Made by a program: the position numbers and the translations under genes. Below, piece after piece: positions 1,419 to 26,857 of a stretch of DNA of 29,490 nt (its first letter is position 1; each line of letters begins with the position of its first letter). The notes under the pieces were generated by a model. It saw only the letters and a list, made by a program, of their open reading frames with translations, searched no databases and was not told where the DNA came from. This stretch comes from a virus, in the IMG/VR virus record IMGVR_UViG_3300042306_000615, positions 1 to 29,490 of that record; one strand, given 5' to 3'.

Positions 1419-1633
1419 CGAACACCCTCCTCATTCCAAAGCCGGATGTTGAGCGACTTGGCTGCAGCGGTTAGGGCTTCGTCTTCGGTTGCGCCTTTGC
1501 CGATAACGGTCATTCCATGCCTTGCGGCGTAGCGGTTGCCGTTGTCTTCGGTTATTGGCTCAACGGTTAGATGATGGCGCTGCATCCAGCGAAGGCGCGG
1601 CGACGGGGTTTCTGGGATGTCGAATAGGTTCAT
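1415..1633 (-). CDS. Small phage protein in the recombination operon
   Basis: A 72-residue protein, starting at the ATG at 1633, which overlaps the exonuclease stop (ATGA). The sequence contains 'HGMTVIGKGATEDEALTAAA', a pattern that looks like a small alpha/beta domain with an Asp/Glu-led helix. A longer open frame to 1711 is rejected because it lies inside the exonuclease. The function is unknown; position between exonuclease and nuclease suggests an accessory part of the recombination module. Confidence 0.7.
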   Translation of the reverse strand: MNLFDIPETPSPRLRWMQRHHLTVEPITEDNGNRYAARHGMTVIGKGATEDEALTAAAKSLNIRLWNEEGVR

Positions 1634-2274
1634 AGTTTGTCTAGGTGTGGGAAAATGATGGGAAACTCTTCGGCCAGGATGTCGCTGGCGAGTTCTTCCA
1701 GCCTGTCGCAAAATTTGAGAATCCCGGCTTGGAGCTTCTCGGTGTAATCGTCTCGCTCAACGATGACGAGCATATTGTCGATGTGCGGATTGTCGGCATA
1801 GGCGAGGAAATAACACTTATCAGCCCCGGTAACGATCATCTCGCCGTGGCATTGCGCCTTGTGGTCTAACGGCAACCCGCCTTCGATGCGCCATTTCAAG
1901 AACGTATGGAGCGCAGGGCATTTGATTTCCACCGGGCATCCATCGTCCGCGATGGCATCCGGGCTTGCTCCATATCGCCCGCAATCTGACAGGAAAAACC
2001 CGCAATCACGGGCGTTAAGGCCATGCCGGAAGTTAAGCCATGACAAGGCTTGTTTCTCCAGATAGTTACCGCGCTCGGTGTCGGGGCTGCCCTTAAAGTC
2101 TGCCAACCACCCGCAAGCGGCGGCGATGAGTTCGGCGGCGTAGCTATCCGACGTTTTGGAATACTCGCCCTTAGCTGGCGTTACGATCCGGCCAAACTCG
2201 CTGGCGGTCGGCCTGCCCTTTCGGTATCCCCACCATTCCGGCGAGCCTTGCACGCATTGGATTTCGCGGCTCAT
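1630..2274 (-). CDS. YqaJ-type viral exonuclease (lambda exonuclease family)
   Basis: A 214-residue protein that matches the YqaJ/lambda-exonuclease family. 'GSPEWWGYRKGRPTASEFG' is the N-terminal signature. 'GASPDA' gives the metal-binding Asp106, 'VEIKCP' gives the catalytic Glu116/Lys118, and Gln141 with a following His continues the usual helix. These enzymes digest one strand from double-strand ends so that an annealing protein can load. The ERF annealing gene lies directly upstream with an ATGA overlap, the classic partner arrangement (compare exo/bet). Length is normal for the family. Activity is inferred from the intact motif set. Confidence 0.9.
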   Translation of the reverse strand: MSREIQCVQGSPEWWGYRKGRPTASEFGRIVTPAKGEYSKTSDSYAAELIAAACGWLADFKGSPDTERGNYLEKQALSWLNFRHGLNARDCGFFLSDCGRYGASPDAIADDGCPVEIKCPALHTFLKWRIEGGLPLDHKAQCHGEMIVTGADKCYFLAYADNPHIDNMLVIVERDDYTEKLQAGILKFCDRLEELASDILAEEFPIIFPHLDKL

Positions 2275-2957
2275 TTCAACTTGTCGTTGAGGGTTTTAAT
2301 CACCTTGCGGAAGGCGTCGGCAGGGATGTCTGCCGGCGTCTCGACTTGGAGCCATTGCAGCATTTTATCCTTCGTATCCGTCGCCGGGATTTGGGCAAGT
2401 AAGCCCTCAATCTCGGCAATCTGCGCGGCGGTGATGTTCGGCGTTCCGGCAGATCCCCCGTTGTCGTCATGGTCCGAAACGATGAGGTTGAGCGCGGCGG
2501 TTAGGGCGTAGCGTTTTGCGTAGCTGATTGCGCTGCCCATCTTTTGGGTGTCGTTGGCCCGCATCGCGGAATCCACCGGAACGGTCACAGATCGGTTGAA
2601 CGCCCCGCCGTCCTTGTGCATAACGTGGCAGACGGCGGTCAGTTTTCCCGGTTCCGGTGTCTGGGTGTCGAATGAAACCGACAAGCCGTTTGACGCTAGG
2701 GATTCGCGGATTGCCATCATGATGTCGTCAAGACTTGCGAATTGCCCACGGTCTGACTTGCGCCCCTTGAAGGTTGAGGGCGCGGTTGACTGGAAGCTGG
2801 CGAGGGCGGCAGCAAGCGCCTTGTCCGCCTGCTTTGCCTCCCATCGTTCTTGAAGCTGCATGAGCTTCTCCAGCTTGTCGGTGTCGACGGTTGATAGGTC
2901 GGCCCCCAACAAAAGGGACATGGGCGCGGCTTGTGGCGTTGTTAGTTCGGTGCTCAT
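2271..2957 (-). CDS. erf: ERF-family single-strand annealing protein
   Basis: A 228-residue protein. The central part, with 'GRKSDRGQFASLDDIM', 'LSVSFDTQTPEPGKL' and 'KMGSAISYAKRYALTAALNL', is the ERF signature of phage single-strand annealing recombinases. The C-terminal 60 residues form a separate small domain after the Gly/Asp-rich linker 'SDHDDNGGSAG'. ERF proteins form rings on ssDNA and pair complementary strands. The gene overlaps the downstream exonuclease by ATGA. Its ATG has the A/C-rich leader GACCACCAAACCA. Identification is strong; partner specificity is inferred from linkage. Confidence 0.9.
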   Translation of the reverse strand: MSTELTTPQAAPMSLLLGADLSTVDTDKLEKLMQLQERWEAKQADKALAAALASFQSTAPSTFKGRKSDRGQFASLDDIMMAIRESLASNGLSVSFDTQTPEPGKLTAVCHVMHKDGGAFNRSVTVPVDSAMRANDTQKMGSAISYAKRYALTAALNLIVSDHDDNGGSAGTPNITAAQIAEIEGLLAQIPATDTKDKMLQWLQVETPADIPADAFRKVIKTLNDKLK

Positions 2958-5811: not shown

Positions 5812-6108
5812 ATGAAAGTTACCATTACCTACCGCCTCGCGACCCGCACCACCAACTGGAGCAAAGTCGCCCTCGAAAACTGGGCTCGCCAAGGCAAGCC
5901 GCGCCTCCGGACGGATGGAACCCCATGCCAGCCCGGCGATGTCGTTAACCGCTTCGAGGAATTTCAGGCCGTCGCCACCGCTGAAGACGGTTCGACGCTC
6001 CGCATGAAGTCTCCGAAGTATCTCCAGAATCAGACGCTGGCCGAGCTTTCCGCTCGCTCCCTCGCCGCCTGGCCAAATTGCCAAATCGAATGGAAGGAGG
6101 CCGCATGA
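5812..6108 (+). CDS. Hypothetical protein of the rightward cassette
   Basis: A 98-residue protein. An N-terminal strand 'KVTITYRLATRTTNWSKVAL', a central 'PGDVVNRFEEFQAVATAEDG' and a helical Ala/Leu-rich end suggest a small alpha/beta protein. No family is recognised. It overlaps the next gene by ATGA, and the two share one terminator, so they form a two-gene unit opposite to the main phage direction. The competing minus-strand frame here (5629-6609) is rejected because its composition and lack of any domain look like a shadow. Confidence 0.65.
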   Translation: MKVTITYRLATRTTNWSKVALENWARQGKPRLRTDGTPCQPGDVVNRFEEFQAVATAEDGSTLRMKSPKYLQNQTLAELSARSLAAWPNCQIEWKEAA

Positions 6109-6461
6109 ACCTACTCGAATCAACGATACCATCCGGAGGGCGGAATCACCTTGACGCCCCCTGCCCAAAGTGCGGGGGGCGGCTCGCCCAATGCGAAGCC
6201 GGGAATGTTCCCGGAGCCGTCGCCTGCGAGGCATGCGGCTGGCAGGGAGAATGGAAGCGAACCAGCAATCCATGGGACATGGATGCGGGCGGCGCGGTCG
6301 CTCATTTCCTGCCTCATCGCGGCCGGCCATGGGGAGCGCGGGAGGGGCAGGTTCGGATGCGCGTCGATCTCGCCGAGAAGGGGCGGTGGACCATCGCCGC
6401 GCGGCGGGCCGGCCAGTCGCTTTCTGAGTGGCTGAGGAAGCTCGCAAACGACGCCAGCTAA
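6105..6461 (+). CDS. Zinc-ribbon protein with ribbon-helix-helix-like tail
   Basis: A 118-residue protein. 'CPKCGGRLAQC' (from about residue 23) and 'VACEACGWQGEW' (about 43-54) make a four-cysteine zinc ribbon. The last 35 residues ('RWTIAARRAGQSLSEWLRKL') resemble the helix pair of ribbon-helix-helix antitoxins and repressors. The start is fixed by a perfect AAGGAGG eight bases upstream, one of the few good Shine-Dalgarno sites in the window. This suggests a DNA-binding regulator; its target is unknown. It might be a host-derived addition, given the G+C-rich codon use. Confidence 0.65.
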   Translation: MNLLESTIPSGGRNHLDAPCPKCGGRLAQCEAGNVPGAVACEACGWQGEWKRTSNPWDMDAGGAVAHFLPHRGRPWGAREGQVRMRVDLAEKGRWTIAARRAGQSLSEWLRKLANDAS

Positions 6462-6490
6462 CCGAGAACAAGACATCGCTCCCAACCATG

Positions 6491-6518
6491 ACCCGCTCCG
6501 AGTTCGGAGCGGGTTTTT
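6491..6518 (+). terminator. Rho-independent terminator of the rightward cassette
   Basis: ACCCGCTCCGA (6491-6501) pairs with TCGGAGCGGGT (6504-6514), followed by TTTTTC. It ends the 5812-6461 unit before the convergent methyltransferase gene. Confidence 0.9.
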
Positions 6519-6572
6519 CGTTAGGATGCGCAGGGCGCGGCGGAGTGGCGTTGTCGGTCATGGTGGGAGGAT

Positions 6573-7352
6573 TTAGGCGTTGTGCAAAGAATCGACGCGC
6601 ATCATGCATCGGAGGATTTCGGCGGCGACTTGTGGCACGATGGCGTTTCCAAGCCCTCGCAGTCTGTCCACCCTTCGGGGTATCCCATCACTCGCTCGGC
6701 AAAGACCGGATGCAGGTAGAGTGGGCATGTCTCGGAGCGGCGTAAGCCTTCCACCATCTTCGCTCCCTTGTAAGCTTTCGATCCTCGGTATCTTGGCCTC
6801 GATGTCCCACGGTATTCCGAGGCGACTATCGTGGGCAGTAATCCATACTCGATCCCGTCGATGGATGGCACCAACGGCACAAGCCGGAATAACGGTCGCA
6901 GTCGCGGCGTAGCCGATGGCATCCAGGTCAGCAAGCACCTCGTCGAGTCCCATGCTGATGTGACCAGCAACATTTTCAGCAAGCACCCAACGGGGTCTTG
7001 CGGCCTCAATAATCCGGCGCATTTCTGGCCAGAGATGGCGAGCATCTTCTTCGCCGCGTCGTTCCCCGGCAGCACTGAAAGGCTGGCAAGGGTATCCGCC
7101 TGTAATAAGGTCGATTGTTCCATAGTTTTTCGGGTCTAGTTGTTTTACGTCCTCGCAGATGGGGACGGTTGGGAAGTTCTTGGCGAGGACTTGCCGCGCC
7201 CATGGGTCTATCTCGCAGAATGCCGCTGTCTTGATTCCGCCTACCATCTGAGCCGCAAGCGCGAATCCGCCGATGCCACTGAACAAATCCAGATGCACAA
7301 CAAGGCGTGGGAGGGCAACGCCGATAACGTCTGTGGCGAGTTCGAGCTTCAT
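6573..7352 (-). CDS. DNA (cytosine-5) methyltransferase
   Basis: A 259-residue enzyme that transfers a methyl group from SAM to C5 of cytosine. Motif I is 'DLFSGIGGF' (22-30), motif IV 'GGYPCQPFSAAGERRG' with catalytic Cys89, motif VI 'AENVAG' (Glu126), motif VIII 'HRRDRVWI' (164-171), and motifs IX/X 'RGLGNAIVPQVA'. The target-recognition region between VIII and IX is only about 50 residues, typical of small phage orphan enzymes; the target site cannot be deduced. No restriction enzyme gene is adjacent, so self-protection against host restriction is likely. The start at 7352 is chosen for the GGAGG about 12 bases upstream. Confidence 0.92.
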   Translation of the reverse strand: MKLELATDVIGVALPRLVVHLDLFSGIGGFALAAQMVGGIKTAAFCEIDPWARQVLAKNFPTVPICEDVKQLDPKNYGTIDLITGGYPCQPFSAAGERRGEEDARHLWPEMRRIIEAARPRWVLAENVAGHISMGLDEVLADLDAIGYAATATVIPACAVGAIHRRDRVWITAHDSRLGIPWDIEAKIPRIESLQGSEDGGRLTPLRDMPTLPASGLCRASDGIPRRVDRLRGLGNAIVPQVAAEILRCMMRVDSLHNA

Positions 7353-14517: not shown

Positions 14518-15362
14518 TAGTCGTATAGGAAAGAATTAAAGCCCTCGCGCTCTGAAAGCGTCCACTCTAGGCTTGTCTGTTTTAGGTCGCCACGTTGCTC
14601 TTGTCCCGCGCCTGTCAGCATCCAGTTGCGTGAACCGCTAGGCGTTGGAGGCCCTCCGCGTGGTGATGAAATCTTGCCTAGCTTGTTGAGCTGCGCGGAT
14701 GTCACGCCATCGCTTCCTTGCGTGGTTTCCGTCCATGTAATCGTTGGAGACAAAAAAGTTATTTCGCCAGCAGCGATTAGCTTTGCAAATTCAATGGCGT
14801 CTCCCGTCAATGTAATGGGACCTTCTGCATCTTCTAACGGAACGAATGAAATCCCCCAAGAAAAGCCTTCTACCAATTCATAATTTCCCACTTGGGTCCA
14901 GTCATATTTGGCCTTCACGTTGCCTTCGATCAATTCCCCAAGCGCGAACTTTTCTGAAGAAGTCAAATCTTGCCATTTAGGGTGTTCGGAAAGCGGCTTT
15001 TCGGAAAGCCTGCCCTCCAGCCTGTAAACCGGGGGCGCATCGTCGCTGATTCCGTCGCCGTCGCCGTATTGAGCGGTAGAGCTTCCCGAAAACTCCACCG
15101 ACACCACAAGGTATCCGCCCTCTTGGAAGTCTAGGGTTTTGCTGGCTACTGTTAGGTAACTCCATTGAGCGCCGATGTTAGGGTCAATCGTGGCAATGCT
15201 GTTGCCCCGTGCGAATTTGTTTCGAATGGTGGAGTTGTTCCAAGATTGAGCAAGCAGCGTGTAGCTGTGGCTTGCCGTTACCCCTCCATTTTCGGATTGC
15301 TTCGGCTGGAATCCGGGCGCGGGGTAAATCTCGTTTATTCTGAGTCCGTGTTGCGTGGCCAT
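14517..15362 (-). CDS. Minor tail protein downstream of the tape measure
   Basis: A 281-residue beta-rich protein. Its position directly after the tape measure (TAATG overlap) is that of distal-tail or tail-hub proteins in siphoviruses. The sequence itself has only mixed polar strands and 'YGDGDGISDDAPP', a possible metal-binding loop. It ends 'EWTLSEREGFNSFLYD', which resembles the closing of a C-terminal domain. The assignment as tail-tip component is positional. Confidence 0.65.
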   Translation of the reverse strand: MATQHGLRINEIYPAPGFQPKQSENGGVTASHSYTLLAQSWNNSTIRNKFARGNSIATIDPNIGAQWSYLTVASKTLDFQEGGYLVVSVEFSGSSTAQYGDGDGISDDAPPVYRLEGRLSEKPLSEHPKWQDLTSSEKFALGELIEGNVKAKYDWTQVGNYELVEGFSWGISFVPLEDAEGPITLTGDAIEFAKLIAAGEITFLSPTITWTETTQGSDGVTSAQLNKLGKISSPRGGPPTPSGSRNWMLTGAGQEQRGDLKQTSLEWTLSEREGFNSFLYD

Positions 15363-16633
15363 TAGTTGGGGAAGGGTTGATCGACTGCGCGGGCGATGAT
15401 TTCAAGCTGCCTGAGCATATCATCCATTTGCCTCGTGTTTCCGGGTGATCCGGGGCGCACTCCAGCGGCAAAGCGTTCTTTGATATATTCCTTAAACTCG
15501 GCATCTGCTATGGTCGCTTCACGCAACTCCCGCGCTGCTTCGGTGATCTCGAAAACGGCAACCTCAAAATTGTCAGAAACCACGCCACGGCTTGCTCCTC
15601 TAATTTCTTTTGCAAAACCAGCACCTCCAAGGTCTTTGTCCACATGTCCATACTCAGCGACTGCATCTGCCATGCTTGCAAGCCCGCCAAGAATCTCCCC
15701 GCCGATTCCTTGGAATGATAGTTTCAGACCTTCTCTTAGAGCCATCCCGATAAGCTCGCCCGTCTTGATGATAAGTTCCAAATCCCCATTGATTGCATTG
15801 ACGATTCCAGCCCCTACCGTTTTGCCTGCGTCCTCGGCAATTTTCTCAACGCTGGAAAGCCCTTGCGTCATTGCATCCGCGCCCGCTTTCACGCCCTCAT
15901 TCAATCCGGTTCCAAATGCGATTTGCAGCGAAAGGATTCCGTCTTTCACCTTGGCGATTTTTCCGGCAGTAGTCTCGCCGCCTTTTTGAATCGCCTGATA
16001 GAAAAGCCCGCCCTCGCTGGTCGCGTCCTTGAATGCCCGCGCAACTTCCGCCGCTGAAATCTTGCCATCCTCCATGCGCTTTTTCAACTCGCCCATGGAT
16101 TCTCCGGTTTTCTTGGAAATCTGTTGGAGCGGGTTAAATCCGGCGTTGACAAATTGCAAGACCTCTTGCCCCATCAGTCGGCCCGCTGCCTGAGTTTGCG
16201 CGAACGCTAGCGCAAGTGATCCAAACCGATCGGAATTACCCATTGAAACATCACCTAGGACGCGAAGTGTATCCATTAGTGTTTCGGCATCGCCACCGAA
16301 TGCTAAAAGCGTTTTTCCTGCATTGGCATAATCGGAAATCGAAAGCGGGGACTTTGCAGCATCCGCCCGCATTTCCGCCAGTAGCTTTTGCGTTACCTCA
16401 CCGGACTTGGTGAGGGTTTCAAATTGCATTGTCAGTTGCTCAAAATCCGATGCGGCGTCCGATGCTCCTTTTGCCAGCCTAACAACACCGTAAGCGCCCG
16501 CAACGCTAGCGGCGACGGCAGCAGTTCCAAAAGCAGCGATGCCAACCGTCAATCCTTTGATGTCACGCTTAACGCCTGACATGGTTTTTTCGAAATGAGA
16601 GGCGTCACCTCGGATTTTAACGGTCAGGCTCAT
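15362..16633 (-). CDS. Tail tape measure protein
   Basis: A 423-residue protein. The N-terminal 'GDASHFEKTMSGVKRDIKGL', the Ala/Gly hydrophobic segments (about 30-55), and a long helical region with 'GNSDRFGSLALAFAQTQAAG' and 'RLMGQEVLQFVNAGFNPLQQ' match the conserved part of tape measure proteins. At the usual 0.15 nm per residue it would set a tail of only about 60 nm, so this is a short-tailed siphovirus or a minimal tape measure. It starts by an ATGA overlap with the end of the GT frameshift product. Confidence 0.9.
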   Translation of the reverse strand: MSLTVKIRGDASHFEKTMSGVKRDIKGLTVGIAAFGTAAVAASVAGAYGVVRLAKGASDAASDFEQLTMQFETLTKSGEVTQKLLAEMRADAAKSPLSISDYANAGKTLLAFGGDAETLMDTLRVLGDVSMGNSDRFGSLALAFAQTQAAGRLMGQEVLQFVNAGFNPLQQISKKTGESMGELKKRMEDGKISAAEVARAFKDATSEGGLFYQAIQKGGETTAGKIAKVKDGILSLQIAFGTGLNEGVKAGADAMTQGLSSVEKIAEDAGKTVGAGIVNAINGDLELIIKTGELIGMALREGLKLSFQGIGGEILGGLASMADAVAEYGHVDKDLGGAGFAKEIRGASRGVVSDNFEVAVFEITEAARELREATIADAEFKEYIKERFAAGVRPGSPGNTRQMDDMLRQLEIIARAVDQPFPN

Positions 16634-18306: not shown

Positions 18307-18711
18307 TCAAACCCGCGCAACCCATGACTCAGCCGTAAAGGTGGTTTCCATCACCGATCCATCCCATTCCGTAGTTGCGCCGTGGTAATCCCAGAAGTCC
18401 ATCCTGATTCCCTCATCAAGTAATGCCTTGATTTCGCTCGGGTCATTCAAGGCGGTTTCGATGCGGTCAACCCATTCATCCACGTTGGCCTCGGCTTCAT
18501 CGCCGGCATGGCATCGCAAGGTGATTTCGACTTGGCACTTTTGAACGCCTTGTAATTCGACGCTGTGACGTTCTGCCCCGGCGATTTCCACGGCGATGCA
18601 CGGAAGTTGAATTTGCTCGCGCTGGGTCGCGTCGGAAACCGTGATGTCCTCATCCGGTTTGAAGATTTCAAGATGGGCGATGATGGCTTTTTTTAAGCGG
18701 CTTGTTGTCAT
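18307..18711 (-). CDS. Tail terminator-like protein
   Basis: A 134-residue alpha/beta protein. The N-terminal helix 'LKKAIIAHLEIFKPDED' is followed by strands ('LPCIAVEIAGAERHSVEL', 'CQVEITLRCHAGDEAE'), then a helix 'DEWVDRIETALNDP' and strands to the end. This matches the plan of gpU/tail-terminator folds, and the gene sits just before the tail tube candidate. Stop and start overlap its upstream neighbour by ATGA. Confidence 0.6.
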   Translation of the reverse strand: MTTSRLKKAIIAHLEIFKPDEDITVSDATQREQIQLPCIAVEIAGAERHSVELQGVQKCQVEITLRCHAGDEAEANVDEWVDRIETALNDPSEIKALLDEGIRMDFWDYHGATTEWDGSVMETTFTAESWVARV

Positions 18712-19391
18712 TGGTTTAGTTGTTTCGTCTTCTTTTTGATGATCGTCTCCATCCGTTTGTAACCATTGATCATCCCTTGTTTCAGTGCTTTCTTGATTGC
18801 CGAATCAGGCTGAATTGCGCGGATGTATGGCGTCTTATTGATCAGCGCGATGGTGAACCTGATTCCTGATCCGATGAACGCGACATCGCCCCATGAGTTG
18901 CCGACATGCCGGGAAATCCATTTCGGAATGCCGGAAAGATTGCCCATTTTCAGTTTGTTTCCGGCAGTCACCCATGCGGCTTTTGCTCTTCCCGCTTTTT
19001 TCACCGCTTTCCGTTTGTATTCCTCTTTTTGCCCCATCGTGATGAGGTCAAGCCATGGTTTTCCGCGTTCTTTTCGGAATTGCCGATAGGGGACTTTTCC
19101 ATTTTTTCTCGCCGCCAAGTGCGCTTTTGAAATGCTGGACGTTGCTGGGAAAGCGCCAAGATTGACGCCAAGATAAACGGCATCCACCTGCCTGCCGATG
19201 GATTTTTCTAGGCTTGCACCTTTCGCAGGGCTTAACCCGAAAGGTTGCACGGTGTTGGCCAGTCTTCGCGCCGATGATTTTCCAATTTCCCGCACGCCCT
19301 CCTCAAATCCTTGCTTGGTCAATTCAGCGTAACGCTCAATCGTCCTCCTCATCCTCGCTTGGCTGGCGCGGTCTAGTTCGATTTTAACCAT
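18708..19391 (-). CDS. Neck / tail-completion protein (HK97 gp10 or lambda gpZ-like)
   Basis: A 227-residue basic protein. A helical start ('QARMRRTIERYAELTKQGFE'), a Lys/Arg-rich centre and a compact C-terminal segment with 'IGSGIRFTIALINKTPYIRA' resemble the tail-completion proteins that connect head and tail. It is followed by a tail terminator and preceded (on the minus strand) by the inverted ligase gene, from whose start it is separated by only two bases. Assignment is by order and composition. Confidence 0.6.
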   Translation of the reverse strand: MVKIELDRASQARMRRTIERYAELTKQGFEEGVREIGKSSARRLANTVQPFGLSPAKGASLEKSIGRQVDAVYLGVNLGAFPATSSISKAHLAARKNGKVPYRQFRKERGKPWLDLITMGQKEEYKRKAVKKAGRAKAAWVTAGNKLKMGNLSGIPKWISRHVGNSWGDVAFIGSGIRFTIALINKTPYIRAIQPDSAIKKALKQGMINGYKRMETIIKKKTKQLNQ

Positions 19392-19393
19392 GG

Positions 19394-19954
19394 ATGCAAA
19401 TTTATCTTGCGTTGTTGGTAGGTCGCTGGCAAGTTCTCCCCGTGTTCGCGCTTCTCAAAGACTGGCAAGGTTCCGATCCGACCGGGTGGTTGATGTCGGA
19501 GAAGCTGGACGGCTGGCGGGTCATGTGGGATGGCGCTGCATTCGTTACCCGCGAGGGCAACACGCTGGATGCGCCTGAGTGGTTTACGGCGGGTCTTCCT
19601 CCGGTCGCACTGGATGGTGAGTTGTTCGCGGGGCGCGTCGGCTTCAACACGATTCAAGGGCTCATGCGCGACGGATGGCACGGGTTGACCTTCCAAGTCT
19701 TCGACGCCCCCGGCGCTGGTGCTTTTCGCGCTCGTGCCGCTTACCTCAAAGCAATCGGGCTTCCCGCCCATGTCGCCATTGTCCCACAAGTTCGGTGCAA
19801 GGGCGTGCATCACCTGATTGAGTTTGCGGATAGCGTCGTGGTGGCCGGCGGTGAAGGCGCGGTCATTCGCGACCCGCGTTCCAAGTGGCAAGCTGGACGT
19901 TCCGGCGATATCCTCCGCTGGGTGCCTCAAAATCCGGCGTTGAATCGGCGTTGA
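19394..19954 (+). CDS. Minimal ATP-dependent DNA ligase (adenylation domain only)
   Basis: A 186-residue protein on the strand opposite to all its neighbours. Motif I is 'SEKLDGWR' with the adenylated Lys37; the following 'MWDGAAFVTREGN' matches small LigE-like ligases. Motif III is 'LDGELFAGR' (Glu76), motif IIIa 'FQVFDAP' (101-106), and motif IV 'EGAVIRDP' (Glu154). Motif V, usually L-K-x-K, reads L-R-W-V (174-177), so both lysines are missing, and there is no OB-fold domain. Self-adenylation is plausible; strand sealing is uncertain. A TAA lies directly upstream in frame, so the ATG at 19394 is the first possible start. Confidence 0.85.
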   Translation: MQIYLALLVGRWQVLPVFALLKDWQGSDPTGWLMSEKLDGWRVMWDGAAFVTREGNTLDAPEWFTAGLPPVALDGELFAGRVGFNTIQGLMRDGWHGLTFQVFDAPGAGAFRARAAYLKAIGLPAHVAIVPQVRCKGVHHLIEFADSVVVAGGEGAVIRDPRSKWQAGRSGDILRWVPQNPALNRR

Positions 19955-19956
19955 AA

Positions 19957-20274
19957 TCATCGTGCCTCATTGGTTGCCGCCAGCGCAAAATGCACGGCGA
20001 TGTTGCCAACGGTAATGTCCGCGATTCGGTAGTTGCGCCCGGAAATGACGCACCGTTTTTCGAGCAGTGAATACGGGCTAGTTACGTCGCTGGGTTGCGC
20101 TGTCACCGTAGCTTGGATGTCGCCCTCCAAACCGCCAAGCGCCCCTTCCTGCCCCTCACGCGCATCATTGAAGACCACCGCGAAGGACTGCCCCGCGCAT
20201 GTCATGGTAACGGTGCCGAATGTCGCATCCAGCTCGTCATTGCCGCCTAAAAGGAAATTGTCCAAAGCCCCCAT
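19957..20274 (-). CDS. Head-tail connector / joining protein candidate
   Basis: A 105-residue beta-rich protein. 'FGTVTMTCAGQSFAVVFNDA', 'DIQATVTAQPSDV' and 'ISGRNYRIADITVGNIAVHF' give an alternating strand pattern like lambda gpFII and other head-tail stoppers. It lies between head genes and tail-completion genes. Its stop sits two bases beyond the stop of the inverted ligase. The assignment is positional and fold-like, not from a motif. Confidence 0.6.
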   Translation of the reverse strand: MGALDNFLLGGNDELDATFGTVTMTCAGQSFAVVFNDAREGQEGALGGLEGDIQATVTAQPSDVTSPYSLLEKRCVISGRNYRIADITVGNIAVHFALAATNEAR

Positions 20275-21089: not shown

Positions 21090-21992
21090 TTAGGCGGAAA
21101 CAAGGCGCTTGAGTCCAGCGGCGATACCAACGGTTTTGCCATAAATGGCCTCCATGACCATCCGGCGGGTTCCGCTGTTTTCGTCATACCAATCGCGCAA
21201 GCCAAGGGTGATTCCGCCTTCACCGACGATAGGCTCGGCGCGGGTGTATTTGTGGCCGGATTGCGGGGCGTTGTAGCGGAAGGCGGCGAGGATTGCGGCG
21301 GGGTCGCAAGCGAATCCAACGAGGTTTTCCGAGTTGGCGGGGATGATGTTGGACTTGATGACCCGGAAGCCGTGAAGCATCGGGACATCACCGGACATGA
21401 TAGCGTTATAGCCGTAACCGGAAGTATCCTTGATCGCGCCGGATTTGCGAAGGGCGGCGATGTAGCCGTTAGACAGCATCAACACGCGGTTTTCTTCGGG
21501 GATGTCGGCGTCATCGCAAGCCTTGGCGATGTCGGCAACGTCGTCCTCGTCGAACGTCGAAGCGGCTCCGGTAAAGGCGGCGGCTCCGTAGTTGGTATTC
21601 GTAACAAGCCCCAGAATGTCCTGCATGATGGACTTGGCGAGGGCGTTGCCCTTGCGGAATCCGAAAAGCTCGATAGAGATGCCGGAAGCGCGGGCGACCT
21701 CAACATCGTCTAGGCTCCACGAAACGTATTTCGGCGTCCCAAGTTCGATGTCAACCTTGTCAGCGTCACAATCTTGGATGGTGTAAGCACCACCAATGGA
21801 TTTGGTCTGCACCGCGTCGATTGCGGTAGCGTCACGAATCACTTTGATGGTGTCGCCGGGACGGGCTGCGTCTGCGGAGAAGGAAGTGCTGAGCGCGGCA
21901 AGCGGCGCGATAACCGAGGTATACCCCCGGATGAAGTTGCGGGCAATGATTTCGTCATTTACCCCGTTGGATGCGAAGTCGGCGTTGGCCAT
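21090..21992 (-). CDS. Major capsid protein (HK97 fold)
   Basis: A 300-residue protein. 'EIIARNFIRGYTSVIAPLAA' starts the N-arm, 'RPGDTIKVIRDATAIDAV' resembles the P22/coat-type strand, 'VARASGISIELFGFRKGNAL' and 'NTNYGAAAFTGAAS' follow, then 'ENRVLMLSNGYIAALRKSG' and 'GDVPMLHGFRVIKSN'. Spacing and length suit a major capsid protein without an N-terminal delta domain. Upstream lie a coiled-coil scaffold candidate, protease and portal in the usual order, and a leader with tandem CTAAC units precedes its ATG. Confidence 0.85.
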   Translation of the reverse strand: MANADFASNGVNDEIIARNFIRGYTSVIAPLAALSTSFSADAARPGDTIKVIRDATAIDAVQTKSIGGAYTIQDCDADKVDIELGTPKYVSWSLDDVEVARASGISIELFGFRKGNALAKSIMQDILGLVTNTNYGAAAFTGAASTFDEDDVADIAKACDDADIPEENRVLMLSNGYIAALRKSGAIKDTSGYGYNAIMSGDVPMLHGFRVIKSNIIPANSENLVGFACDPAAILAAFRYNAPQSGHKYTRAEPIVGEGGITLGLRDWYDENSGTRRMVMEAIYGKTVGIAAGLKRLVSA

Positions 21993-22508: not shown

Positions 22509-23354
22509 TCAAATTGCGAGTTGTTTAAGGGCTTCTGCGGCGTCCTCCGCATCGCCGATTCCGTCAATGAGTCCGAGGCTTTCGGCCCTCTCGCCTTCAT
22601 ACCACCCCGCCCGGAAAACCTCATCGTCCACTTGCGGGCGATTGGCTTTGACTGAATCGCGGAATTGCTTCCCGGCGGCGTCGATTGATTCTTGCAAAAA
22701 GGCAAGTTGCGTTTCGTTAGGCTCAAGGTGAAAAGTAGATTTCAGGTCCGCGCCTTCGCTGGTCAAAGCCTTAAACTCGATTCCCATTTCCTTCCAAAAC
22801 TCAGTGCAATCGGCCCATGAAAGGATCGTGCCGATATTGCCAACGCTAGCGGATGGTGTGGCGATAATGAAGTTGGTTGAGGCGCTCAGCTTATACGCTG
22901 CGGAACATGAAAGCCCTTGGCAGAATGAAGCTGTGGGAACGGCGAGGTTTTGGATGAAGCTGGCAGCTTCGACATTGCCCGCGACAGTTCCACCGGGGGA
23001 ATTGACGTGGTAGAGAATGGCCTTGGCTCCTGAATCGACAAGCGCGTTGGTTTCTGAAATGATGGTTTCATATTTGGTGGCGAGTCCGAGCTTCTCATAA
23101 ATGCGGGCGATTGACTCCATCAAAGCGCCTTTGATTTCAACATGGCCGATTCCGTTGGCGTCCACATACGCGGCTTTGCGCATTGGGTAATAATCCTCGC
23201 GCCAATCTTCGCCCTTTTGCTCAGGCTTATCTTCTTTCGCCTCCAAAGCGGCAAGAGCAAAGTCAGCAACCATATCGGGGCGGATCATCCAAAGCTGCCC
23301 GCGCAACGATGAAAGCATGCGAAGCTGGGAGATGTTAGGCGTTAGAGTTTTCAT
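22509..23354 (-). CDS. S49-family head maturation protease
   Basis: A 281-residue protein of the SppA/lambda gpC class. 'ILYHVNSPGGTVAGNVEAAS' is the ClpP-like SPGG segment, 'GLSCSAAYKLSAS' carries the nucleophile Ser region, 'ATPSASVGNIGTIL' follows, and the later 'IEFKALTSEGADLKSTFH' contains lysines expected near the general base. It cleaves scaffold or capsid N-arms during head maturation. The start overlaps the portal stop by 20 bases. The C-terminal extension found in lambda gpC is absent; the scaffold is a separate gene here. Confidence 0.85.
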   Translation of the reverse strand: MKTLTPNISQLRMLSSLRGQLWMIRPDMVADFALAALEAKEDKPEQKGEDWREDYYPMRKAAYVDANGIGHVEIKGALMESIARIYEKLGLATKYETIISETNALVDSGAKAILYHVNSPGGTVAGNVEAASFIQNLAVPTASFCQGLSCSAAYKLSASTNFIIATPSASVGNIGTILSWADCTEFWKEMGIEFKALTSEGADLKSTFHLEPNETQLAFLQESIDAAGKQFRDSVKANRPQVDDEVFRAGWYEGERAESLGLIDGIGDAEDAAEALKQLAI

Positions 23355-24798
23355 CGTTTGAAGTGGTTTCGGTGGTTTGCTGCTCGTTTGGCGTGAACAT
23401 CACAAGCTCACGCGGGTTGATTTCAACGCCGTATTTGTCTTTCATTTCTTGGATCAGGATCATGCGTTGCGCTGCTTCTTCCGCTTTGGCGCGCATGACG
23501 TCTTTATACTCGCGCCCCATTGCGGCGGTGATGTCGCCACCGCTCTTGAATCCCATTTTATAAGACTCAACCAACTCCTTCATCACCCGCCCATCGTCAA
23601 TCGTGAGCTTTGCGGGTTTTGAAAACCCCCATCGCCACCAATCGGAAGACGCGGGAAGTTCTTGGCGTTTTTGTTGGACTGCAACGGCGTAGGAAATGAG
23701 ACGTTTGGCGGCGTATTCCAAAATGTCCTGCCTGTCCTCAACGGCGCGTTGAGCTTTGCCAAGGTCCGACCTTTCGGCGGTTCCTTGTCCGGTCGCCTTC
23801 CATGACATCGAGTAAGGCCAGTTAATTCCGGCCAGCGCGGAACGAATGATCCGATCTTGGAAATTCTCCCACACTTCGCCGGGGCGGTCGCTCTTAAGCG
23901 TTTCAATTTTTCCGCCGCTGTTAGCCCGAAAATACCGAATGCTTCCACCGTCGAGCTTTTCGATGGTCATGCCCTTTCCGGTTGCTACGTCGCCGATCAA
24001 ATCGTTAGACGGATCATCCAGATCAGGCCCGCCGTTTTCGTTGTATTCGATGATGCCGATACTCGAAAGCATCATTTGCGCCATGCGCTCCCACTCGTGG
24101 GATTGCGCCATGTCGCGGAGGTCGTTGAGGGCATGGGTGAAAGCTGGCAACCCGCGCCCCTGCTCCTGCCATTGCGGGTCATACAAATGGATCATGTTCG
24201 CCGCCTGAATCCACTCCTTGCCCTTTCCGTCGTCATCAACCAGGCGATACCACAGTGGCGCTCCTTGTGGGTTGTAAACAACGCCATCACGCAACATTCC
24301 GCCCTTGGTTTTGCCTTCCGTCTCATCCGATCCGGTGGCGATTTGATGCGCTGGAATGTGTTGGTAACGAGGGTATCCGTCGTCTGTTTTTGTTAGAAGA
24401 ATAAATGCCTCTCCGTCTCGATCAATAGCGACTGATGCGAGGAAAAGCGAAGTAACAAAATCATTCATTCCGCCGCGAACGTCACCGATTCCATACCACT
24501 GGTTCACAAGCCAATCCTTTGCTTGCGCGCCAAACTCGGTATCCGATCCAAGGAAATCCGGCTGCCACGCCCTGCCAACGGAATACATGGCCTTCTGGTC
24601 AATCGCGCCCCGTGCGACTCCGATGTTGATATACATGCGGCGACTTGCCGAAAGCAGCGTTTTTCGATCATAACTCGGGATGAGCTTGTCGATGTTCCGC
24701 AGTTGGACGGGCTCCCACGGGCGGCTTCCATTATACCGCTCGGCAGACCTCGCCGCCTTGTATTGGTAAGGACTTCCGAACTCGTTTAGAATCGCCAT
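23335..24798 (-). CDS. Portal protein, lambda gpB type
   Basis: A 487-residue protein. 'RMYINIGVARGAIDQKAMYS' and 'ASVAIDRDGEAFILL' are lambda-portal-like; 'HIPAHQIATG', 'GVVYNPQGAPLWYRL' and 'IHLYDPQWQEQGRGLPAFTH' are conserved features of that family, as is 'GINWPYSMSW'. It forms the dodecameric DNA gate at the head vertex. The ATG at 24798 follows a TTG that could also serve; the leader contains TTTTGACACCCGCC. The family is confident, exact start less so. Confidence 0.9.
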   Translation of the reverse strand: MAILNEFGSPYQYKAARSAERYNGSRPWEPVQLRNIDKLIPSYDRKTLLSASRRMYINIGVARGAIDQKAMYSVGRAWQPDFLGSDTEFGAQAKDWLVNQWYGIGDVRGGMNDFVTSLFLASVAIDRDGEAFILLTKTDDGYPRYQHIPAHQIATGSDETEGKTKGGMLRDGVVYNPQGAPLWYRLVDDDGKGKEWIQAANMIHLYDPQWQEQGRGLPAFTHALNDLRDMAQSHEWERMAQMMLSSIGIIEYNENGGPDLDDPSNDLIGDVATGKGMTIEKLDGGSIRYFRANSGGKIETLKSDRPGEVWENFQDRIIRSALAGINWPYSMSWKATGQGTAERSDLGKAQRAVEDRQDILEYAAKRLISYAVAVQQKRQELPASSDWWRWGFSKPAKLTIDDGRVMKELVESYKMGFKSGGDITAAMGREYKDVMRAKAEEAAQRMILIQEMKDKYGVEINPRELVMFTPNEQQTTETTSNDENSNA

Positions 24799-24813
24799 CA
24801 ACCTTGGCGGGTG

Positions 24814-25117: not shown

Positions 25118-26857
25118 TCACTTCACTTCGGTGGCGCTTACAAACACTCTGCGGATATGGGCCATGACCGCTTGCTCAACCTCGCAGTCCCATAAATGGT
25201 TTGGCCTCCCTTTTTTAATTGGCTCCCACCTCCAAATTCCCGGCGATGTCTCCCTTTTCTGCTCCGATTGCATGTGAGCGTGATAGTTTTTCGAAACATC
25301 AACCGGCACTCCGAACTTTCCTGACTGCATCAAAGCACAAAGGAAATCTTTCGCCAAAAGGTTTGAAAATCCCACAAATTTGTATGTTTTGAATTTTGAA
25401 TCTTCACTTTTTCTGTAATCAGAAAACATCCTCCTAAAGTTTCTCCCGTTTATATTTTTGACATATCCATCTCGCGTGTCTTCGCCCCTGAGAAGGACCC
25501 ATGTATTTGTATCTCCTGGCTTTGCCGCCCTCATTGCCTCTTCCGCCGCTTCTCCGGGTCTATAACCGCAGTCGACTGCAACATTCCAGTTTTCCACGCC
25601 ATATCGTTCTTGCAGGTATCGAATGTTGTCCCACGTCTCAACCCTGCCCTCCCAAAGTAGCCGTGATTCGCCACCAACCTGCCATGCCCTGATTACGCAC
25701 CAAAAGTGCGTTCCTTGGACGTCAACCGTTAGAAACCTTTTGTGCTCTAGCTCCCATTTCAATCCTTCGTGGTATTCTTTTTTTGAATACGCCTCGCCCG
25801 ATATACTTAAAACAGGACTTTCGCTCGGCTTCTTCCAGAATTGCGCGAACCGCTGGCAAATGATGTTTTCCAGTTTCTCAAGTTGCCCGCTCTTTTTGTC
25901 TTCGTTGGCGATGAGCCACTCCTTCACCATGTCGCACCATGAGTAACGCCAGACGGTCATAAACGACGCTCGCAAGGTCATGCGTCCGGGGATGAACTTC
26001 CCACCATCCCACACGGGCTTGCACTTTGCCCATTGTCTGCGGTTGTATTCGGTGTCTTGGAATTGTTCGCCGCAATGAGGGCATTTAAGGCGGACGGTTT
26101 CGTAAATTGCCACCCAATCGAGTTCTTCGTTGGCGTCGATGATCTTTTCAAACTGGTAGTTGCTCCAATCGAACACGCTGCCCATTTTGCATTTCGGGCA
26201 TTCGTGTTCTAGGTCGTGCCACTTTCCAGCTTTGGCGTGGTTATGCCATTGACCGTCTTCGTCACCGCCTTGGGAAAGCATCAAGTTCTTGCGGTTCCAC
26301 CGCCCGTGATGGCGTTTTAGCAGGTAGTCGATCATCCCGTCATCCCACCGCCAGACCTCATCTCCGACGGTGTAAACCATGGATTTTTCTTGAAGCGCGG
26401 TCTTGTTAGCAGGCCCGGCAAAAAAGTTCATGTGCCGGAAAATCACTTGATCTTTTTTCCAGTTACTCCGCTCTGCCCCGGTTGGGATGTGGAGCTTGGT
26501 TAGCGGGCTTGTCTGCCATACTTTCCGCATTCGGCTTTCCATCCAATCTTGAACCGTGTCCCCGGTTTGCCCGACCACCATCATGTCGCCATGATCGACG
26601 GCGACGGCGCGGACGCCTAGTCCTTCAATGATAGCGGTTTTCCCGAATCCAACGCAGGCAACCACGGCGATTTCTTTTACCTCTGGGTCTTCCAGCCAGT
26701 CCCAAATGATCGCGTGCGCGGGAACGGCGTCGAGTGAGTATCTTGCTCCTTCTGGCGAGTTGGGGAGATAAACATGTTCGCACACCCAATCACGCCACGG
26801 CTCTTCTGGGGGCGGCTTAACGCCCCGGCAGAATCCAGCGATGAGGGGGGATGTCAT
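25118..26857 (-). CDS. Terminase large subunit, GpA type
   Basis: A 579-residue protein. A variant Walker A is 'CVGFGKTA' (68-75), a Walker B-like 'YTVGDEVWRWDD' follows, then zinc-binding C-x2-C pairs ('CPKC' and 'CPHC'). The nuclease part has 'LTVDVQGTHFWCVIRAW' and 'NVAVDCGYRPGEAA', supplying acidic metal ligands. It cuts and pumps DNA into proheads, in company with the small subunit. The frame is tightly coupled to the gene at 26854. Confidence 0.9.
   Translation of the reverse strand: MTSPLIAGFCRGVKPPPEEPWRDWVCEHVYLPNSPEGARYSLDAVPAHAIIWDWLEDPEVKEIAVVACVGFGKTAIIEGLGVRAVAVDHGDMMVVGQTGDTVQDWMESRMRKVWQTSPLTKLHIPTGAERSNWKKDQVIFRHMNFFAGPANKTALQEKSMVYTVGDEVWRWDDGMIDYLLKRHHGRWNRKNLMLSQGGDEDGQWHNHAKAGKWHDLEHECPKCKMGSVFDWSNYQFEKIIDANEELDWVAIYETVRLKCPHCGEQFQDTEYNRRQWAKCKPVWDGGKFIPGRMTLRASFMTVWRYSWCDMVKEWLIANEDKKSGQLEKLENIICQRFAQFWKKPSESPVLSISGEAYSKKEYHEGLKWELEHKRFLTVDVQGTHFWCVIRAWQVGGESRLLWEGRVETWDNIRYLQERYGVENWNVAVDCGYRPGEAAEEAMRAAKPGDTNTWVLLRGEDTRDGYVKNINGRNFRRMFSDYRKSEDSKFKTYKFVGFSNLLAKDFLCALMQSGKFGVPVDVSKNYHAHMQSEQKRETSPGIWRWEPIKKGRPNHLWDCEVEQAVMAHIRRVFVSATEVK

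Follow-up and report, generated by a model that had tools for sequence, protein, structure and literature searches.

ATP-dependent DNA ligases are described as needing an adenylation domain, an OB domain and two motif V lysines. The window analysed here, a whole viral record of 29,490 bases, carries in its head-tail block a ligase-type gene whose product has neither the OB domain nor the lysines. The question it raises is whether this protein is a broken ligase or a conserved enzyme and, if the latter, which reaction it may carry out.

Gene order at the locus and start of the ligase gene

The head-tail block of the window follows the lambda order on the minus strand, with genes for the terminase large subunit (25118-26857), portal (23335-24801), protease (22509-23354), capsid (21090-21992), an FII-like protein of 105 aa (19957-20274; weak match to Phage_attach, lambda FII-like, PF05354), a gp10/Z-like protein of 227 aa (18708-19391) and the tape measure (15362-16633). 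The gp10/Z-like gene was named from the lambda Z / HK97 gp10 position, and a family match for it was not found. The FII-like gene forms the left border, in transcription order, of an insertion slot, and between it and the gp10-like gene lies an open reading frame of 186 codons on the plus strand (19394-19954). The preliminary description placed this gene on the strand opposite to its neighbours, as it is, both flanking genes being on the minus strand. It also gave 2 bases between the stops and 2 between the starts: the first spacing is exact, but the divergent starts are 50 bases apart once the ligase is begun at GTG 19442. Elsewhere in the window, genes for a YqaJ-type exonuclease and an Erf-type annealing protein lie side by side (1630-2957, minus strand), as a phage recombination pair.

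Translation of the ligase probably does not begin at ATG 19394. A start at GTG 19442, giving a product of 170 aa (19442..19954, plus strand), is probable because relatives align to the window ligase from there and the 16 codons upstream are unconstrained. The position of the window's ATG is a GTG in the relative L002, and between these two sequences the 16 extra codons carry three non-synonymous and one synonymous changes, against seven and 28 in the rest of the ligase. This open in-frame stretch (19394..19441, plus strand), whose length is not conserved, is probably a divergent intergenic or promoter region. An antisense frame of 195 codons (19373..19960, minus strand) was rejected as a gene from its codon changes, with a dN/dS of 1.76 in its own frame against 0.07 in the ligase frame; it begins at the ATGA that is the gp10-like gene start in four relatives with an empty slot (L207, L211-L213).

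A Lig E adenylation fold that ends after motif V

The window ligase matches the Lig E structure 8u6x (E 2.3e-32), with 4d05 and 6gdr also matched, and PHROG 114, ATP-dependent DNA ligase (E 1.5e-23), which backs the initial reading of an ATP-ligase adenylation domain; its match to Pfam PF01068 (E 1.8e-5) is just below that model's cut-off. Identity to Lig E across the adenylation domain is 28-37%. An AlphaFold2 model built on an 85-row alignment (mean pLDDT 94) superseded a poor earlier model built on 13 close relatives (pLDDT 67), and its residues 1-166 superpose on residues 4-180 of Psy-Lig (4d05) with a VIA Z of 24.0, followed by 23.8 to 8u6x and 22.4 to 6gdr. The structure comparison proposed at the outset, against LigE and RNA-ligase families, therefore returned the Lig E fold (Z 22-24), and the top structural matches are all DNA ligases, not RNA ligases, to which a structural relation may nevertheless exist. 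As modelled, the window protein is the whole adenylation domain fold and no more. In Lig E the domain boundary falls directly after the first motif V lysine (PMC6144786); the corresponding residue in the window protein is Arg159, with 11 residues left after it. An RNA-ligase-specific C-terminal domain is absent from the window protein, which has nothing beyond motif V but a 9-residue end. Most bacterial Lig E proteins have a periplasmic leader peptide. None was seen here, as relatives begin 3-6 residues ahead of LLRDY and the 16-codon extension of the window is unconstrained.

The catalytic motifs that belong to the adenylation domain are in place, all on the plus strand and in the 170-aa numbering: motif I (K-L-D-G-W-R, with the AMP-accepting Lys21; 19499..19519), motif III (L-D-G-E-L, Glu60; 19610..19624) and motif IV (G-G-E-G-A-V-I-R, Glu138 and Arg143; 19847..19870). 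Arg37 (19550..19552) takes the place of Psy-Lig Lys41, which touches a sulfate ion in the active site, and is invariant among proteins that share the motif V form of the window, hereafter the RWV group. That form, R-W-V-P-Q replacing K-x-K (19916..19930), is likewise invariant in the group, Arg159 corresponding to Psy-Lig Lys173 and Val161 to Lys175. The sequence reads D-I-L-R-W-V, so the change from L-K-x-K to L-R-W-V first noticed at this locus is real. Lys21, Asp23, Gly24 and Arg26 are the same in 22/22 RWV rows and 60/60 other rows of the alignment, and these four together with Arg37, Glu60, Phe87, Glu138, Arg143 and Arg153 are present in 22/22 RWV rows and nearly invariant in OB-bearing relatives too. 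Motifs I, III, IIIa and IV thus retain their AMP-pocket residues, whereas positions 159 and 161 separate the two sets completely: Arg/Val in 22/22 RWV rows, Lys/Lys in all 58 OB-bearing rows readable at both positions (two further rows are gapped there). Ten more residues are invariant in the RWV group only (W25, N69, Q72, H110, W160, P162, Q163, P165, N168 and R169).

The loss of the OB-fold domain, also claimed from the start, holds as well: there is no match to PF14743, the OB domain with motif VI, anywhere in the window record, and 9 residues remain after motif V. Across the RWV group the proteins stop 9-23 residues after motif V and lack the OB contacts G-K-G-K-F and F-x-I-G-S-G-F. A separately encoded OB domain nearby was rejected, as a PF14743 search of 29 records returned only the OB-bearing ligases of L040 and L047, which served as controls and were recovered, and one weak match with internal stops; a divergent OB-fold protein may have escaped this search. 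A second ligase in the same genome was rejected likewise, with one ligase per record, the records being fragments.

The RWV form is a conserved group

A census from three viral-contig scans and one bacterial-genome scan yielded 28 sequences of the RWV form in which motif V could be read: that of the window, 26 from further viral contigs and one from a contig of a metagenome-assembled genome (MAG; L075). All 28 read R-W-V-P-Q, which answers the initial query whether relatives keep the same residues, and the pentapeptide is invariant down to about 52% identity to the window. Values of dN/dS are usually 0.07-0.17 (0.07 between the window and L002, a median of 0.09 in the L004 group) and highest, at 0.33-0.34, in pairs with L022. 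Judged from these sequence comparisons, the RWV form appears conserved strongly enough that a useful role must persist.

Full-length relatives do occupy the same place. L040 and L047/L286 carry an OB-bearing, K-x-K ligase in the same slot, inverted as in the window (225 aa in L040 and L047, about 36-42% identical to the window's), and the structural genes place L040 close to the window, among its nearest phages (terminase 67%, capsid 62%); in L032 and its kin an OB-bearing ligase lies on the far side of the FII-like gene. The preliminary description took such a homologue to mean that the window's copy is simply truncated. The homologues exist, but that conclusion does not stand, because 28 sequences conserve the short form under purifying selection; the same conservation and low dN/dS rule against a truncation or pseudogene private to the window.

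In a tree of the adenylation domain, all RWV rows fall in a set of 27 with L033, L051, L040 and L047 (support 97/89). The tree weakly nests the OB-bearing L040 and L047 among the RWV rows, and a single RWV clade is not rejected (AU p 0.30). Three relatives without an OB domain keep K-x-K: L033 (K-V-K; 5992-6522), L058 (K-L-K; 1201-1713) and L290 (K-L-K; 1501-2055). The first sits between an FII-like gene and the next structural gene, the second near a primase-like gene and the third beside a tyrosine integrase.

Other members of the family vary in different ways. L051, a 40-kb viral contig, encodes an OB-bearing Lig E-like protein (5995-6693) with a degenerate active site (SEKFDGWGVGW, ALRCEIW) that has lost the motif I arginine and the motif III Asp-Gly and, by its sequence, is a possible pseudoenzyme. 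In L089 an OB-bearing bacterial Lig E-like protein has, by pattern match, K-V-V as motif V, the second lysine being lost. The RWV ligase of L075 (7995-8519) is flanked on one side by RecN- and DUF2851-like genes of chromosomal type and on the other by an unassigned HTH-like gene, on a contig of 62% GC from a MAG labelled Akkermansia muciniphila; the contig is perhaps a prophage edge or a stray. Given that GC content and the lack of a further RWV-type match among 388 genomes of the MAG's phylum, Akkermansia is no more than a candidate host. Two other genomes of that phylum gave matches, of which L288 and L290 keep K-x-K (L289 was not in the comparison).

The ligase gene is an optional insert

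We compared 81 phages that share the FII-like neighbour, namely 80 viral contigs found via that gene and the window. An RWV ligase is present in 28, an OB-bearing ligase in six and none in 47; the ligase gene is an accessory insert in this group of uncultured tailed phages. Empty sites are clean in L240-L242, where TTTTGACT and then the gp10-like gene come immediately after the stop codon of the FII-like gene. Their kin with an occupied slot (L222, L223, L229, L234-L237, L239 and L247) have an inserted unit that consists of an A-run, GTCTTTACA, 17 bases, a TAnAAA-like hexamer and then the ligase to its stop.

This TTTACA-17-TAnAAA arrangement is conserved upstream of the ligase in the same-strand group, and its promoter-like score against shuffles reaches p 0.00-0.03 in the better members, though it is not above shuffles in all. 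Neither a sigma-70 promoter nor a TTTACA-17-TAnAAA-like match was found in the window itself, and a clear terminator was not seen on the ligase strand. Between the two hexamers most of the occupied kin have an imperfect to perfect dyad, for example GTAGGCAAAGCCTAC or CTAGGCAAAGCCTAG. It lies at about 3310-3370 in L222, L223, L229, L234, L235, L237 and L239, and its outer base pair switches between G-C and C-G from contig to contig, as would be expected of an operator.

L207 and L211-L213 are close kin of the window (87-92% DNA identity in the FII-like gene) with an empty slot, and their gp10-like allele differs from that of the window, its ATG overlapping the stop of the FII-like gene. Mapped on the gp10-like tree, ligase presence requires six changes; the FII-like tree, which is shorter and less resolved, requires 17, so the ligase and the gp10-like gene appear to travel together; physical linkage alone could be the cause. 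Orientation has changed at least twice within the RWV group. "Inverted", as the gene was first called, is accurate for the window and fails as a defining trait, since about half of the contigs have the gene in the same direction as its neighbours.

A proposed mechanism and its alternatives

By analogy with characterised ligases, we propose that the protein may be a working adenylyltransferase that joins nucleic-acid ends, charges itself poorly from ATP and needs pre-adenylated ends or a partner, a reading to which we give an even chance. AMP would go onto Lys21, and ends bearing a 5′-phosphate and a 3′-hydroxyl would be joined. Self-charging from ATP would be weak, as the protein lacks the elements that assist step 1, namely motif VI and the motif V lysines. 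The first of these lysines holds the alpha-phosphate of AMP, and the two together stabilise the step-2 intermediate (PMC6144786; PMC4220977). Motif VI, which lies on the OB domain, assists step 1 (PMC6698739); it is needed there and dispensable in step 3 (PMC3514331). In truncated T4 Rnl2 and MthRnl K246A, step 1 is crippled and pre-adenylated ends are still joined, and the active archaeal ligase PAB1020 has a natural Val at the second motif V position (PMC3514331); these precedents for a weak step 1 beside a retained step 3 come from RNA ligases rather than from Lig E.

In the window protein Arg159 may stand in for the first motif V lysine. The main action would be on ends that are already adenylated, either sealing them by step 3 or recovering AMP from those that have stalled. 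A pure step-3 enzyme is argued against, since the nucleophilic lysine is not needed for that step (MthRnl K97A keeps it), yet Lys21 is invariant; either step 1 or a reversal of step 2 must therefore be important. Alternatively, a phage or host partner might give the clamp in trans, as do the OB-fold proteins on which kinetoplastid RNA-editing ligases rely (PMC4599027).

A possible, though doubtful, variant is that the protein is either an adenylation-only offshoot with a new nucleotidyl-transfer role or one half of a split ligase clamped in trans by a phage protein, possibly the gp10/Z-like head-tail protein that is inherited with it. Taken separately, an adenylation-only enzyme is unlikely in our estimate. 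It would move AMP from ATP or from adenylated ends to a protein, a small molecule or an RNA end, for example as the product of a moron that modifies the host or counters its defence, and it would explain the loss of the DNA-clamping OB domain and motif V lysines from a protein that retains its lysine-AMP pocket. The residues invariant in this group only suggest a shifted function, and an accessory gene with promoter-like sequence of its own in one subgroup is moron-like. Against a departure from nucleic-acid ends, the group retains Arg37, an adenylation-domain residue opposite the end-phosphate site, and its domain is no less basic than that of OB-bearing relatives (mean net charge +2.3 versus +0.4).

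We consider it rather improbable that the protein is a self-sufficient minimal ligase, in which the domain alone would bind DNA and seal nicks, with Arg159 replacing the first lysine and the WVPQ-P-NR tail replacing linker contacts. Lig E needs four lysine/serine contacts of its OB domain for DNA binding (PMC6144786) and step 1 needs motif VI (PMC3514331), which weigh against it, although the domains of T7 ligase singly bind double-stranded DNA (PMC6144786) and Val occupies the second motif V position of an archaeal RNA ligase that is active (PMC3514331). The OB-less relatives that keep K-x-K (L033, L058 and L290) occur independently, so OB loss is tolerated more than once, and the Erf annealing protein and YqaJ exonuclease of the window would yield products that need sealing.

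Repair of RNA ends, for instance of a tRNA cut by a host defence nuclease, is very improbable: RNA ligases do without the DNA-ligase OB domain, some have a non-lysine at the second motif V position and an optional gene would suit counter-defence, but sequence and fold are specifically those of Lig E, with DNA ligases making up all the best structural matches, and neither a kinase nor a phosphatase partner was seen in the window. A decaying or truncated pseudogene is hardly credible, for despite the lost OB domain and K-x-K, and the OB-bearing ligases in the same slot of L040 and L047, RWVPQ and the catalytic residues are invariant in 28 sequences with dN/dS usually 0.07-0.17.

Comparison with known systems

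In a published survey, Lig E and the other minimal ligases all consist of adenylation and OB domains (PMC8455567), but that survey was limited to proteins of 250-370 aa and would therefore have missed the RWV group. Our literature searches found no match for an OB-less DNA ligase or a ligase moron. A natural, widespread and constrained group lacking both the OB domain and the lysines would comprise the smallest known ligase-type proteins; it lets the need for OB domain and motif V in each ligation step be tested directly, and bears on whether nature pairs adenylation domains with partners or with other AMP transfers. A further use of such enzymes could be as ATP-independent ligases, a kind now engineered by hand.

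The closest likeness is to Lig E (4d05, 6gdr, 8u6x), with which the phage protein shares the adenylation fold and the form of motifs I, III, IIIa and IV. It differs in having no OB domain or motif VI, R-W-V for K-x-K and no leader peptide, and in being phage-borne; with two defining features absent, the OB domain and K-x-K, it is not a Lig E ligase. The OB-bearing ligases of L040, L047/L286 and L032 have the same neighbours, in or next to the same slot, and differ in keeping both features.

Kinetoplastid RNA-editing ligases have an intact motif V. In the pairs TbREL1/KREPA2 and TbREL2/KREPA1 the catalytic domain likewise lacks an OB domain of its own and a partner brings the OB-fold (PMC4599027). 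These ligases have a helical C-terminal domain. T4 RNA ligase 2 (1-249) and its K227Q form, and MthRnl K246A, resemble the phage protein in having the adenylation domain alone, a lost motif V lysine, or both (PMC3514331). They belong to another family, act on RNA and are laboratory-made, whereas in the phage protein the loss of the C-terminal domain and of the motif V lysines is combined naturally.
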